Assembly: GCF_000719555.1 (NCBI RefSeq)
Contig: NZ_JOGX01000012.1
Coordinates: 1-64,000, forward strand
Direction of reading: 5' to 3'
Source: Streptomyces sp. NRRL F-5727
GTDB taxonomy: Bacteria > Actinomycetota > Actinomycetes > Streptomycetales > Streptomycetaceae
Length of the DNA stretch: 64,000 nt
Of the stretch, positions 1 through 3,839 are shown piece by piece. The position numbers and the translations under genes are program-made. How positions within the stretch are numbered: the stretch's first letter is position 1; each line of letters starts with the position of its first letter. Below the pieces are notes generated by a model. It was not told where the DNA came from and made no database searches. It saw only the letters and a program-made list of their open reading frames with translations.

Positions 1-123
1 AGAACGGCACGACGAATCGCAGCCGTCAGGCTCAGTGGTTCTTGCGGAGTGGCTGTCCGGGGCCGACCGGAGTCGGTGCTCACGTCGGACAACTCGGAGA
101 ACAGTACGGACCGGTCAATCCCG

Positions 124-151
124 TGTCAACCCCCGTCCTGGGGCGTACTCT
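124..151 (+). promoter_or_regulatory. Predicted promoter of the trpS leader
   Basis: A TGTCAA hexamer (124-129) and a TACTCT hexamer (146-151) are separated by 16 nt. The -10 element ends 6 nt before the leader-peptide ATG at 158, so the transcript probably starts at or next to that ATG and is leaderless. Bases 1-123 hold no gene that I can support. Confidence 0.5.
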
Positions 152-157
152 CTCCGT

Positions 158-199
158 ATGACTACGCGTGCGCACACCACCCAGTGGTGGGCCGCCTGA
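158..199 (+). CDS. trpL: Trp leader peptide (13 residues)
   Basis: A 13-codon frame reads MTTRAHTTQWWAA and stops at TGA 197-199. It has two consecutive Trp codons (TGG at 185-187 and 188-190) just before the stop, in a stretch that doubles as the first arm of a hairpin. This is the classic layout of a ribosome-sensed attenuator. The peptide itself probably has no function beyond making translation speed report charged tRNA-Trp. It has no Shine-Dalgarno and a -10 box 6 nt upstream, so translation is probably leaderless. Confidence 0.8.
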   Translation: MTTRAHTTQWWAA

Positions 200-247
200 C
201 GGCGGCCCGTACTGACGCATGCACACGGCCGCCGATCCGGCGGCCGT
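189..247 (+). promoter_or_regulatory. Trp attenuator (alternative hairpins)
   Basis: Four segments can pair in competing ways. Segment 1 (189-196) and segment 2 (201-208) form a perfect 8-bp stem with loop TGAC that covers the second Trp codon and the leader stop. Segment 3 (225-234) and segment 4 (238-247) form a perfect 10-bp GC stem with a 3-nt loop, the presumed terminator. Seven bases of segment 2 (201-207) are also complementary to segment 3 (227-233), giving an antiterminator. A ribosome stalled on the Trp codons would mask segment 1, free segment 2 and allow readthrough into trpS. There is no U-run after the terminator stem, which is common in Streptomyces. Confidence 0.75.
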
Positions 248-312
248 TCGCGTATCCCCCTCCGGGAGCCGGGCCGTCGGGCCGGCTCGGGACGGAGAAG
301 GAGCGGAACGCG

Positions 313-1311
313 ATGACGAGGATCTTCAGTGGGGTCAAGCCGACCGGGCATCTGACGCTGGGCAACTACCTGGGGGCCGTGCGGCGGTGGGTCGAGGTGG
401 ACCAGCACCGGGGCGAGGCGCTGTTCAGCGTGGTGGATCTGCACGCGCTGACCGTGGAGCACGATCCGGCGCGGGTGCGCAGGCTCAGTCGGCAGGCGGC
501 GACGCTGTTGTTGGCTTCGGGGCTCGATCCGGAGGTCTGCACGCTGTTCGTGCAGAGCCATGTGGACGAGCACGCCCGGCTGTCGTACCTGCTGGAGTGC
601 ACGGCCACCGACGGCGAGCTGCGGCGGATGATCCAGTACAAGGAGAAGAGCGTCCGGGCGCGGGAGGCTGGGCAGGGCGTACGGCTCTCTCTGCTCACCT
701 ATCCCGTGCTGATGGCCGCCGACATCCTGGCCTACGGGGCCGACGAGGTGCCGGTGGGCGAGGACCAGACGCAGCACGTGGAGCTGACGCGGGACCTGGC
801 GGTGCGGTTCAACCAGCGGTACGGGCACACCTTCACCGTGCCGAAGGCGACGCGGCCGGCGGTGGCGGCGCGGGTGATGGATCTCCAGGACCCCGGATCG
901 AAGATGGGCAAGTCGCATGAGAACGGGGCCGGGATCGTCTATCTCCTCGACGACGCGGACACCGTGCGGCGGAAGGTCATGCGGGCCGTGACGGACAGCG
1001 GACGGGAAGTCGTCTACGACCGGGACGTCAAGCCGGGTCTCGCAAATCTGCTCGATCTGATGGCGGCGGCGACGGGTGGGAACCCGGAGGAGCTGGCCGG
1101 TGTATACGAGTCGTACGGAGCGTTGAAGAAGGACACGGCGGACGCGGTCGTCGAGCTGCTGCGGCCGGTGCGGGAGCGGCATGCCGAGCTCGCGGCGGAT
1201 CCGGGGTTCGTGGACCGGGTGCTGCGGGACGGGGCCGAGCGGGCCCGGGGGGTGGCGCGGCCGCTGGTCGACCGGGCCTACCGGGCGATCGGGCTGTTGC
1301 CGGCCGTGTGA
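313..1311 (+). CDS. trpS: Tryptophanyl-tRNA synthetase (auxiliary, attenuated)
   Basis: This 332-residue class I synthetase charges tRNA-Trp in the cytoplasm. It shows the HIGH-like motif TGHLTLGN (residues 11-18) and the KMSKS-type loop KMGKS (197-201), and its length is normal for bacterial TrpRS. The ATG at 313 follows a good ribosome site (AAGGAG near 298-303); the open frame continues further upstream without family similarity. It lies behind a Trp leader and attenuator. Streptomyces carry two TrpRS genes, and the attenuated auxiliary copy (trpS1 of S. coelicolor) is known to be indolmycin resistant and induced when Trp-tRNA is short. Resistance of this copy is inferred from context, not read from residues. 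Its 3' end overlaps the convergent regulator by 34 bp. Confidence 0.95.
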   Translation: MTRIFSGVKPTGHLTLGNYLGAVRRWVEVDQHRGEALFSVVDLHALTVEHDPARVRRLSRQAATLLLASGLDPEVCTLFVQSHVDEHARLSYLLECTATDGELRRMIQYKEKSVRAREAGQGVRLSLLTYPVLMAADILAYGADEVPVGEDQTQHVELTRDLAVRFNQRYGHTFTVPKATRPAVAARVMDLQDPGSKMGKSHENGAGIVYLLDDADTVRRKVMRAVTDSGREVVYDRDVKPGLANLLDLMAAATGGNPEELAGVYESYGALKKDTADAVVELLRPVRERHAELAADPGFVDRVLRDGAERARGVARPLVDRAYRAIGLLPAV

Positions 1312-2276
1312 CGGAAGGCGGCGCGGTAGTCGCGCGGGCTGGTGGCGAGGTGCGAGGCGAAGTGCTGGCGCATCGTGACCTCGCTGCCGAAGCCCGCGCG
1401 GCGGGCCACTTCGGGGAGGGGATGGTCGGTGAGTTCGAGGAGTTTCTGGGCGGCGGCGACGCGCTGGGCGATGAGCCAGTGGAGCGGGGTCGTGCCGGTG
1501 GTGGCCTGGAAGTGGCGGGCGAAGGAGCGGGGGGACATCCCGGCGTGGGCGGCGAGACTCGCGACGGTGTGGGGCTGGTCGAGATGGGCGAGCGCGTGGG
1601 CGCGGACGGCGGCGAGCGCGTCCTCGTCGCGGTCGGCCCTGGGGGTGGGGCGCTCGATGAACTGGGCCTGGGTGCCGGTGCGGAAGGGGGCGGTGACCAT
1701 CGAGCGGGCGACGGTGGCGGCGACCTCGGCGCCGTGGGCCGTACGGACGAGGTGGAGACAGAGGTCGATGCCGGCGGCGGTGCCGGCCGAGGTCCAGATG
1801 CCGGTGTCCTCGATGTAGAGCGCCTCCGGTTCGACGCGGATGCGGGGGTGGCGGGCGGCCAGGGTGTCGGCGAGGCGCCAGTGGGTGACCGCGCGGCGGC
1901 CGTCGAGCAGGCCGGCGCGGGCGAGGACGAAGGCGCCGGCGCAGAGGGAGGCGACGGGGACGGCGTGGTCGTGGGCGCGGCGGAGGGCGTCGAGGACGGG
2001 GGTGGGGACGTCGGCGTCGGGGTCCTCGATGCCGGGGACGAGGACGAGGTCGGTGGGGGTGAGGGTGTCGAGCCAGTCGAGGGGGCGGTCGGGGGTGAGG
2101 CTCAGGCCGCCGCGGATCGGGATGGGGATGGTCGGGTCTGCGGCGGTGCGGCGGAGGTCGAAGGCGGGGACGCCGCGGGTGGTGCGGTCGGTGCCCCAGA
2201 CCTCGGTGACGACGGAGACGTCGAAGGCCCGGATGCCGGGGAAGGAGAGGAGAGCGATGCGCTGGGGGGCCGCCAT
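1278..2276 (-). CDS. GlxA/AraC-family transcriptional regulator
   Basis: This 332-residue protein has an N-terminal DJ-1/PfpI-like sensor fold (about residues 1-190, with SLCAGAFVLARAGLLDG as the nucleophile-elbow stretch) and a C-terminal AraC-type double helix-turn-helix (about 220-315; MSPRSFARHF and GFGSEVTMRQHF are the recognition regions). GlxA-type members sense small molecules and often govern amidase or degradative genes. It is divergent from a cysteine hydrolase 75 bp away, a likely target. A TTTACT element sits 7 nt from the ATG, so the mRNA may be leaderless. The last 34 bp overlap the end of trpS on the other strand. Confidence 0.9.
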   Translation of the reverse strand: MAAPQRIALLSFPGIRAFDVSVVTEVWGTDRTTRGVPAFDLRRTAADPTIPIPIRGGLSLTPDRPLDWLDTLTPTDLVLVPGIEDPDADVPTPVLDALRRAHDHAVPVASLCAGAFVLARAGLLDGRRAVTHWRLADTLAARHPRIRVEPEALYIEDTGIWTSAGTAAGIDLCLHLVRTAHGAEVAATVARSMVTAPFRTGTQAQFIERPTPRADRDEDALAAVRAHALAHLDQPHTVASLAAHAGMSPRSFARHFQATTGTTPLHWLIAQRVAAAQKLLELTDHPLPEVARRAGFGSEVTMRQHFASHLATSPRDYRAAFRHTAGNSPIAR

Positions 2277-2316
2277 GGTTGGCAGTAAACCATCGATCGC
2301 TGGCTTCGGCGCCTCT

Positions 2317-2328
2317 GGGACGTGTCCC
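2317..2328. promoter_or_regulatory. Small inverted repeat in the divergent intergenic region
   Basis: GGGAC-GT-GTCCC lies between the AraC-type regulator and the cysteine hydrolase. It could be an operator half-site, but the arms are only 5 bp long, so support is weak. Confidence 0.25.
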
Positions 2329-2351
2329 GGGGCGGCGGCAGGATCGTGGAC

Positions 2352-2939
2352 ATGGAGATCAAGGAGAACGCAGCGCTGATCGTCGTCGACGTCCAGAAGG
2401 GCTTCGAGTACGCGTTCTGGGGGCGTCGGGACAACCCGGAGGCGGAGACGAACATGACCGCCCTGATCGACCGGTGGCAGGAGACGGGTCGGCCGGTGGT
2501 GTTCGTGCGGCACGACTCGGTTCAGGAGGGTTCGCCGCTGGCGCCGGGGACCGCGGGGAACGCGTTCAAGGACTTCGTCGAGGAGCGGCGGGGCAGGGGC
2601 GCGGGGCCCGAGGTGCTGGTGACGAAGACGGTGAACTCCGCCTTCTACGGGGAGCCGGATCTGGACGCGTGGCTGAAGGGGGCGGGGATCGACCAGCTGG
2701 TGATCGTCGGCATCCAGACGAACATGTGCAACGAGACGACGGCCCGGATGGGCGGGAACCTCGGGTACGACGTGGTGTTCCCGCTGGACGCGATGCACAC
2801 CTTCGACCTGGCGGGGCCGTTCGGCTGGACGCGGACGGCGGAGGAGCTGACCCGGGCGACGGCGGTGTCGCTGCACGGCGGGCGGTTCGCCCGGGTCGTG
2901 ACCACGGAGGACGTGCTGAAGGGGACCGTGGCGGAGTAG
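2352..2939 (+). CDS. Isochorismatase-like cysteine hydrolase
   Basis: This 195-residue hydrolase of the isochorismatase/nicotinamidase superfamily has the full catalytic triad in order: Asp13 (ALIVVDVQ), Lys92 (VTKTVNSAFYG) and Cys126 (IQTNMCNETTARMG). The exact substrate (amide, carbamoyl compound or isochorismate-like ester) cannot be told from sequence. The gene is divergent from a GlxA/AraC regulator that probably controls it. The ATG at 2352 was chosen because homology begins at MEIKENAALIVVD; its ribosome site is weak and an in-frame GTG lies 6 nt upstream. It ends 5 bp from the convergent proC. Confidence 0.9.
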   Translation: MEIKENAALIVVDVQKGFEYAFWGRRDNPEAETNMTALIDRWQETGRPVVFVRHDSVQEGSPLAPGTAGNAFKDFVEERRGRGAGPEVLVTKTVNSAFYGEPDLDAWLKGAGIDQLVIVGIQTNMCNETTARMGGNLGYDVVFPLDAMHTFDLAGPFGWTRTAEELTRATAVSLHGGRFARVVTTEDVLKGTVAE

Positions 2940-2943
2940 GGGG

Positions 2944-3753
2944 TCAGCCGTTGCCGGAGGCGAGTTCGCGGCTGCGGTCGCGGGCGGCTTCCAGGGCGGC
3001 GATGAGGGCGGCGCGGACGCCGTGGTTCTCCAGCTCGCGGATGGCGCTGATGGTGGTGCCGGCGGGGGAGGTGACGGCCTCGCGGAGCTTCACGGGGTGT
3101 TCGCCGCTGTCGCGGAGCATGACGGCGGCGCCGATGGCGGCCTGGACGATCAGGTCGTGGGCCTGGGCGCGGGGCAGACCGAGGAGGATGCCGGCGTCGG
3201 TCATGGCCTCGACGAGGAAGTAGAAGTACGCCGGGCCGGAGCCGGAGAGGGCGGTGGCGGCGTCCTGCTGGGACTCGGGGACGCGGAGGGTCTTGCCGAC
3301 GCCGCCGAAGATCTCCTCGGTGTGGGCGAGGTGCTCGGGGGTGGCGTGGCTGCCGCCGGAGATCACGGACATGCCCTCGTCGACGAGGACGGGGGTGTTG
3401 GGCATGACGCGGACGACGGGGGTGCCGGGGCTGAGGCGTTCCTCGATGAAGGAGGTGGGGATGCCGGCGGCGGCGCTGATGACCAGGCGGTCGGTGGCGA
3501 CGTGCGGGCCGAGTTCGTCGAGGAGGCGGCCCATGTCCTGGGGCTTGACGGCGAGGATGAGGGTGTCGGCGCGCTTGGCGGCCTCGGCGTTGGTGACGGT
3601 CTCGACGCCGTAGCGGTCGCGGAGTTCCTCGGCGCGCTCGCTGCGGCGGGTGGTGACGAGGAGGTGCGCGGGGTGCCAGCCGGCTCGGATCATGCCGCTG
3701 AGGAGGGCTTCACCGATCTTGCCGGTGCCGAGGACTGCGACGGTCTGGGTCAT
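2944..3753 (-). CDS. proC: Pyrroline-5-carboxylate reductase
   Basis: This 269-residue enzyme reduces pyrroline-5-carboxylate to L-proline with NAD(P)H, the last step of proline synthesis. It begins with a Rossmann motif (VAVLGTGKIGEALLSG) and carries the ProC signature near the C-terminus (LREAVTSPAGTTISAI). The ATG at 3753 has a GAGGTG ribosome site 9 nt upstream; a GTG 12 nt further upstream lies too close to that site. It appears to be transcribed alone. Confidence 0.95.
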   Translation of the reverse strand: MTQTVAVLGTGKIGEALLSGMIRAGWHPAHLLVTTRRSERAEELRDRYGVETVTNAEAAKRADTLILAVKPQDMGRLLDELGPHVATDRLVISAAAGIPTSFIEERLSPGTPVVRVMPNTPVLVDEGMSVISGGSHATPEHLAHTEEIFGGVGKTLRVPESQQDAATALSGSGPAYFYFLVEAMTDAGILLGLPRAQAHDLIVQAAIGAAVMLRDSGEHPVKLREAVTSPAGTTISAIRELENHGVRAALIAALEAARDRSRELASGNG

Positions 3754-3839
3754 GGCTCTGTTCACCTCGCCGGAGGGGGTTACGTGTCGTCATCCTCGCA
3801 CCGGCGGGGCGGCCGGTGCGCGGGGTGTCCGAGGGGCGG

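Follow-up and report, generated by a model that had tools for sequence, protein, structure and literature searches.

A further covarying helix in the tryptophan attenuator of an auxiliary trpS gene of Streptomyces

Introduction

Control by the Escherichia coli leader trpL follows a logic of alternative pairings between leader segments, denoted 1:2, 2:3 and 3:4, and Trp_leader is the name of an Rfam family. For an antibiotic-resistant auxiliary tryptophanyl-tRNA synthetase (TrpRS) gene, ribosome-mediated transcriptional attenuation was reportedly described by Vecchione and Sello in J Bacteriol in 2010, as the title of that article has it.

A preliminary description of the locus treated here had named this type of regulation as already known, which is borne out by the available portions of two articles, on trpS2 of S. 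avermitilis (PMC1262725) and on S. lividans (PMC8079986). In the first (Seliverstov 2005), as far as its accessible text goes, S. avermitilis trpS2 is predicted to be preceded by an attenuator, and the trp-operon leaders of Actinobacteria are found to carry double or triple UGG codons and a conserved gGCC-rGCy-GGCC triple (PMC1262725). In the second, a reannotation of S. lividans TK24, the available part places a leader named trpL2, MMTRTCTQLWRAA, before trpS (PMC8079986).

Results

The attenuator and its alternative helices

The stretch of DNA analysed here (the window, 64,000 nt) is contig 12, from its first base, of the 7.95-Mb draft genome of Streptomyces sp. NRRL F-5727, and the relatives of this genome are Streptomyces. 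The features on which the analysis is built are as follows.

146–151, plus strand: −10 box TACTCT, ending 6 nt before the leader ATG; read directly
158–199, plus strand: leader ORF MTTRAHTTQWWAA of 13 codons, with ATG at 158 and stop codon at 197–199; read directly
166–172, plus strand: 5' strand of helix P0, in leader codons 3–5; covaries with 216–222 and lies in the minimum-energy fold
185–187 and 188–190, plus strand: Trp codons TGG of the leader; read directly
189–196, plus strand: segment 1, overlapping the second Trp codon; read directly, fold and alignment
200–208, plus strand: segment 2, of which 201–208 pairs with segment 1 and 200–207 with segment 3
216–222, plus strand: 3' strand of P0, in the linker between segments 2 and 3; covariation, and a like arrangement in other Trp attenuators
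225–234, plus strand: segment 3; read directly and alignment
238–247, plus strand: segment 4, with 3:4 the terminator hairpin of 10 bp without a U-tract; read directly, fold and terminator scan
294–303, plus strand: Shine-Dalgarno-like GGAGAAGGAG of trpS; read directly
313–1311, plus strand: trpS of the auxiliary TrpRS1 type, 332 aa; TIGR00233 at 303 bits, above the cut-off

The preliminary description had proposed a complete Trp attenuator before an auxiliary trpS at 158–247. The leader, its TGG pair and the pairings 1:2, 2:3 and 3:4 can all be read directly, and the four segments lie where they had been placed. Helix 1:2 joins 189–196 to 201–208 in 8 bp around a UGAC loop, helix 3:4 joins 225–234 to 238–247 in 10 bp around a loop of 3 nt, and helix 2:3 joins 200–207 to 227–234 in 8 bp. 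The region 150–260, for which folding had been suggested as a check, is calculated to fold at −56.4 kcal/mol versus −43.0 ± 3.8 kcal/mol for 200 shuffled sequences (z −3.57). These observations confirm that a second trpS gene, of TrpRS1 type, is preceded by a Trp attenuator. The account was incomplete in that it had overlooked a further covarying helix, P0. The minimum-energy fold includes this as an outer helix pairing 166–174 with 213–222, with one bulge. Attenuators of this kind were known before; P0 is the addition.

Rfam 15 covariance models returned no match at E≤1 in positions 1–3000 of the window. A model made from the relatives (R2) recovers the window attenuator from its own 7.95-Mb genome at E 7.8e-24 with no other strong site, the next match (E 0.005) being an antisense echo of the same attenuator.

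Conservation of the leader across trpS1 loci

The comparison of the leader across trpS1 genes that had been proposed as a check was made on 110 trpS1 loci, comprising the best 80 contigs of at least 559 relatives, 29 loci of the genus and the window; 9 further trpS1 copies of the genus sample lie outside this set. The leader filter called for an ORF of 11–16 codons within 260 nt and would have admitted leaders lacking the first Trp codon (W1). A leader of 12–15 codons that bears TGG towards its end is present at all 110 loci. The peptides end in WWAA in 97 cases, WRAA in 9, WWPA in 3 and WWLA in 1. W1 is thus kept throughout, and the second position (W2) is Arg in 9/110, which by parsimony takes 5 steps in the 96 aligned leaders. 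The single-Trp (WR) leaders are L013, L031, L043, L063, L067, L081, L088, L091 and L097, and resemble S. lividans trpL2 in this respect. In the genus sample, R2 matches at E<1e-10 occur in 39 of 61 genomes, which are exactly the 39 that carry trpS1, and by coordinates each match sits just upstream of that gene.

Of the 110 homologues, 108 carry a TANNNT box separated from the start codon by 6 or 7 nt, and because of this spacing the leader transcript is probably leaderless, as had been proposed from the window alone; S. lividans trpL2 is reported as leaderless in the available text of its reannotation (PMC8079986).

An alignment (A1) was made of 96 of the 110 leaders, leaving out one identical sequence, one near-duplicate and 12 in which the leader was longer or shorter than usual or the linker was extended. 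The cells of helix 1:2 are paired in 88.8% of cases, those of 2:3 in 98.0% and those of 3:4 in 99.4%. Arms 1:2 and 2:3 contain no doubly changed cell, because these arms hardly vary, and 3:4 contains one at each of two pairs. Covariation of the four arms, the lack of which had been named beforehand as a refutation, therefore speaks neither for nor against the attenuator.

The near-complete pairing of 3:4 bears on whether control might act through translation of trpS, or through Rho, instead of through intrinsic termination at 247. Such control would suit the U-poor tail that follows 247, where a consensus terminator scan, which needs a run of T, gave nothing, and also S. lividans trpL2, which likewise has no uridine-rich sequence after it, according to the accessible part of the report (PMC8079986). 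Since the two leaders agree in this, we do not take the missing U-tract as excluding an attenuator. Against control at the level of translation or by Rho stand the 3:4 stem itself and the position of the trpS ribosome site, some 50 nt further on and outside the switch, and we regard it as highly unlikely.

P0 covaries in trpS1 attenuators

In A1, P0 pairs columns 8–17 with columns 60–69, and the part formed in the window is 166–172 with 216–222. It contains 76 doubly changed cells versus 30.0 ± 4.0 in shuffles, its covariation score is 0.344 versus 0.238 ± 0.009, and 85.5% of its cells are paired (14.5% unpaired) versus 80.0 ± 0.5%; each value was reached in 0/500 shuffles, which ignore relatedness. 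The best slid version of the helix is paired in 70.8% of cells and scores 0.223. The number of P0 pairs with a double change (5 versus 4.7, reached in 322/500 shuffles) and the number of further pair types (15 versus 14.6, 272/500) are not above shuffles, and pair 8–69, one of the ten listed, is unformed in 85 of the 96 leaders. By parsimony on a tree of the TrpRS proteins, with cells other than Watson-Crick left open, the P0 pairs need 30 Watson-Crick switches (3+5+6+5+3+8). Locus by locus, pairing of the leader 5' strand with the linker reaches p<0.05 in 109/110 trpS1 loci (window p 0.033). P0 covaries as a further helix of trpS1 attenuators beyond 1:2, 2:3 and 3:4. No earlier description of it was found in open-licence PMC papers, a collection that leaves out most subscription papers. 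The trp alignment of Seliverstov 2005, in the part of the article available, spans the Trp codons to the terminator, so that the 5' strand of P0 falls outside it (PMC1262725).

As the 5' strand of P0 lies in codons, the pairing could be a by-product of selection on the peptide. An MTT[RH] start recurs in many leaders, and codon 7, which is not part of P0, keeps its third base roughly as well as codons 3 and 4 keep theirs; a conserved peptide would account for both observations. The third base of codon 5 is however invariant in trpS1 leaders, that of codon 3 nearly so and that of codon 2 free. Moreover, the Thr/Ala swap at codon 5 moves together with the linker, from A-U to G-C in 33/96, the Arg/His swap at codon 4 being mostly one-sided, from G-U to A-U. 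The leader peptides of other attenuators (see below) are unrelated. A conserved peptide with incidental pairing is accordingly the explanation to which we give the least credence.

Modelled ribosome stalls and the default fold

Ribosome stalls were modelled by equilibrium folding of an RNA ending just past segment 3, with ribosome positions masked and the mean of three footprint edges taken. With A-site codons from W1−2 to W1+1, the computed probability of 2:3 exceeds 0.5 in 110/110 leaders; with the A site at W1+3 or W1+4 (the stop codon after WxAA), it does so in 0/110. Stalls at W1+2 yield 2:3 in 77% of leaders, and early stalls, from W1−8 to W1−3, in 43–64%. In the window, TGG 185 is inside the range predicted to free segment 2 and TGG 188 at its edge. 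This computed range fits the observation that W1 is never lost and W2 is lost in 9/110.

In the model with no ribosome, the mean P(1:2) of the 110 leaders is 0.89 and the mean P(2:3) 0.10, with P(2:3)>0.5 in 7/110. Barring the linker from pairing raises P(2:3) to 0.94, with values above 0.5 in 107/110 trpS1 leaders, because segment 1 is then taken up by pairing with the leader 5' strand, as seen in the window. Shuffling the linker is a fairer control: at 30 °C it moves the mean P(2:3) of the trpS1 set from 0.10 to 0.44, with 46/110 above 0.5. In the set of more distant attenuators described below, the change is from 0.10 for native leaders to 0.16, and three distant native leaders, two of them Streptomyces trpE types, favour 2:3. 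A decisive thermodynamic role for P0 was considered and set aside, the effect being strong with the linker barred and weaker with it shuffled. We keep the weaker statement that, in this modelling, P0 plausibly steadies the default fold, and more so in trpS1 leaders.

P0-like pairing in other Trp attenuators

So that P0 itself would not be selected for, a second model (R3) was made to start at the Trp codons and stop at the terminator; neither P0 nor the 5' strand of the leader is part of it. R3 was trained partly on loci found with R2 and contains linker letters, against which the swap test given below is a guard. At E≤1e-3, R3 matches 151 of 394 genomes of the class, in 53 of 137 genera. In the genome of the window it finds the window site and a trpE-type attenuator at contig 14, 63939–64025, with the leader MYALPTQNWWWTV...; at the trpE-like loci on contigs 2 and 9, inspection by eye revealed no WW leader. 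Across the phylum, 44 of 198 genomes match at E≤1e-3, six of which are genomes of the genus besides the window's own, and the others are mostly weak, with E above 1e-5, and could have arisen by chance.

Outside the Streptomyces trpS1 sites, 94 loci were assembled, 14 through R2 and 80 from the R3 lists, the latter being 78 class matches, the weakest at E about 2e-7, and two phylum matches. The corresponding alignment set (A3) has 99 rows, from which five antisense rows and one without a start were removed to give 93 loci in 33 sequence clusters; leader starts were picked with preference for a −10 box. The first 24 nt of each leader were compared with the linker against shuffled linkers. P0-like pairing is found at p<0.05 in 19/33 clusters and at p<0.01 in 7/33, and the other 14 clusters, including the Streptomyces trpE type (p 0.65), are individually non-significant. 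Control windows reach p<0.05 in 2/32 clusters upstream and 0/33 downstream. On excluding the nine clusters with R2-selected loci, 11 of 24 clusters have p<0.05 (Fisher 8e-12). When linkers were swapped among loci, the observed mean energy was reached 0 times in 20,000, in both the full and the 24-cluster sets; just 3/33 clusters, however, pair better with their own linker than with every other one.

Twenty of the downstream proteins were scanned. Above cut-offs there are ten trpS products and one trpD product; seven resemble anthranilate synthase component I below cut-offs, several of them cut by the end of the fetched stretch, and two have no family at 1e-20. The two loci outside the class are L297, within the phylum, which precedes a trpE-like gene (match G+C 0.51, P0 p 0.010), and L298, with no downstream family at 1e-20 and P0 p 0.28. 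P0-like pairing is thus found again, in a different sequence, in attenuators of trpS, trpE-like and trpD genes.

A lock on the start codon was tried as the sole explanation of P0 and rejected: the helix touches the start codon in 23/33 clusters versus 56% in shuffles, which does not single it out, and in the trpS1 set P0 leaves the AUG free.

P0 might also have no function of its own and simply continue 1:2 outward into one longer hairpin of the usual sort, the way folding of a single sequence would show it. It does enclose 1:2 and is present in the minimum-energy fold, P0 shows no preference for the start codon, and in the distant set little is lost when linkers are shuffled. P0 is nevertheless the part that covaries, P0-like pairing recurs with unrelated letters in trpE-like, trpD and other trpS attenuators, and E. 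coli trpL shows none (p 0.52 for leader codons against linker). We consider this explanation a serious contender, at somewhat short of even odds; the reading that we prefer is that P0 most likely helps to hold the terminating fold.

trpS genes and indolmycin

The genome carries two trpS genes. The second, on contig 24, is 49% identical to the window trpS, and inspection by eye found no comparable leader upstream of it. In the genus sample, 39 copies of trpS1 are recognized at E<1e-150, the next class being at about 1e-90 to 1e-101. Residue 9 of TrpRS1, which we take to be the residue of indolmycin resistance when it is Lys, is Lys in the window and in 105/110 loci, and Gln in the other five, by two parsimony steps. 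TrpRS1 is indolmycin-resistant according to the available part of a review. Resistance to this drug is a candidate role for the window TrpRS1, with which Lys9 is consistent. The Gln9 loci (L032, L038, L074, L096 and L099) retain the WW attenuator, and going by this residue, their auxiliary TrpRS is possibly drug-sensitive. One contig of 3.5 kb labelled Microtetraspora glauca (L004, JOFO01000109.1) carries a trpS1 97% identical to that of the window; the label is perhaps due to contamination or mislabelling.

Neighbourhood and remnants of the locus

In six of the seven loci scanned that had enough upstream sequence (L015, L019, L030, L058, L066 and L083), trpS1 is divergent to an rRNA operon, with the 16S rRNA on the opposite strand and its 5' end about 670–740 nt from the leader start; the seventh, L053, is without 16S. 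This adjacency probably explains why many contigs, that of the window included, begin shortly before the leader. At 129–101 of the window, on the minus strand, TTGACA-N17-TACTGT is legible by eye and is absent from the list of the consensus scan.

Three genomes lacking trpS1 keep remnants of the attenuator near contig ends. In G028 (L157) the leader MTTHMRPLQWWAV is kept without the terminator; in G006 (L156) and G022 (L158) the terminator is kept without the leader. In G028 and G006 a proC-like gene directly follows the remnant and, by eye, resembles window 2944–3765. At L160 (G036, contig 2, 3947500–3947985) the only trpS1-type match of the genome covers residues 170–331 at 70% identity, and no attenuator match is present.

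Discussion

The locus is best read as a leaderless Trp attenuator of trpS1 in which P0 most likely helps to hold the terminating default fold, a reading to which we assign a probability of about 0.86. From the data above we infer how termination and the response to drug might come about in this strain, and the part that P0 would play. The leaderless transcript would begin at about 158. When charged tRNA-Trp is plentiful, the ribosome would reach the stop codon at 197 and cover segment 2, 3:4 would form and transcription would end near 247. When Trp-tRNA is short, because the cell is starved or because indolmycin or another inhibitor acts on its housekeeping TrpRS, the ribosome would stall at TGG 185, covering segment 1 and leaving segment 2 free, so that 2:3 would form and trpS1 would be transcribed. 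With no ribosome, 1:2 and 3:4 are expected to form, and P0 (166–172 with 216–222) would close around 1:2. In this position P0 most likely helps to maintain the terminating default by preventing the 5' strand from pairing with segment 1, and it may also shut the leaderless start region to later ribosomes.

A wider proposal, which we offer tentatively and would put nearer to one chance in three than to an even one, is that the Trp attenuators of Actinomycetota share a hitherto undescribed P0, formed between the first codons of a leaderless leader and the linker of segments 2 and 3. As soon as transcription had moved beyond the linker, P0 would seal the terminating fold and close the 5' end to new ribosomes, making the attenuator a single-shot sensor for one pioneer ribosome. 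Should P0 work as proposed, four segments would not be the whole picture for many attenuators of the phylum. P0 also offers a search feature linking trpS, trpE and trpD attenuators.

Like the window, E. coli trpL has tandem UGG codons in its leader; unlike the window, it has a U-run after its last hairpin. The E. coli K-12 trpL was compared using segment limits and a transcript start that we presume to be correct, and neither its leader codons (p 0.52) nor its ribosome-site region has P0-like pairing with the linker. The trp-operon terminators of Seliverstov 2005, in the accessible part of the article, have poly-U, in contrast to the window terminator (PMC1262725). A close likeness is to S. 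lividans trpL2, described in the available portion of its report as a 13-codon leaderless leader ending in WRAA before trpS, with two hairpins and no uridine-rich stretch (PMC8079986). It differs in having one Trp codon where the window leader has two, and that portion of the report names no fifth helix (PMC8079986). If P0 acts as proposed, a lock absent from E. coli trpL would be built into leaderless attenuators.
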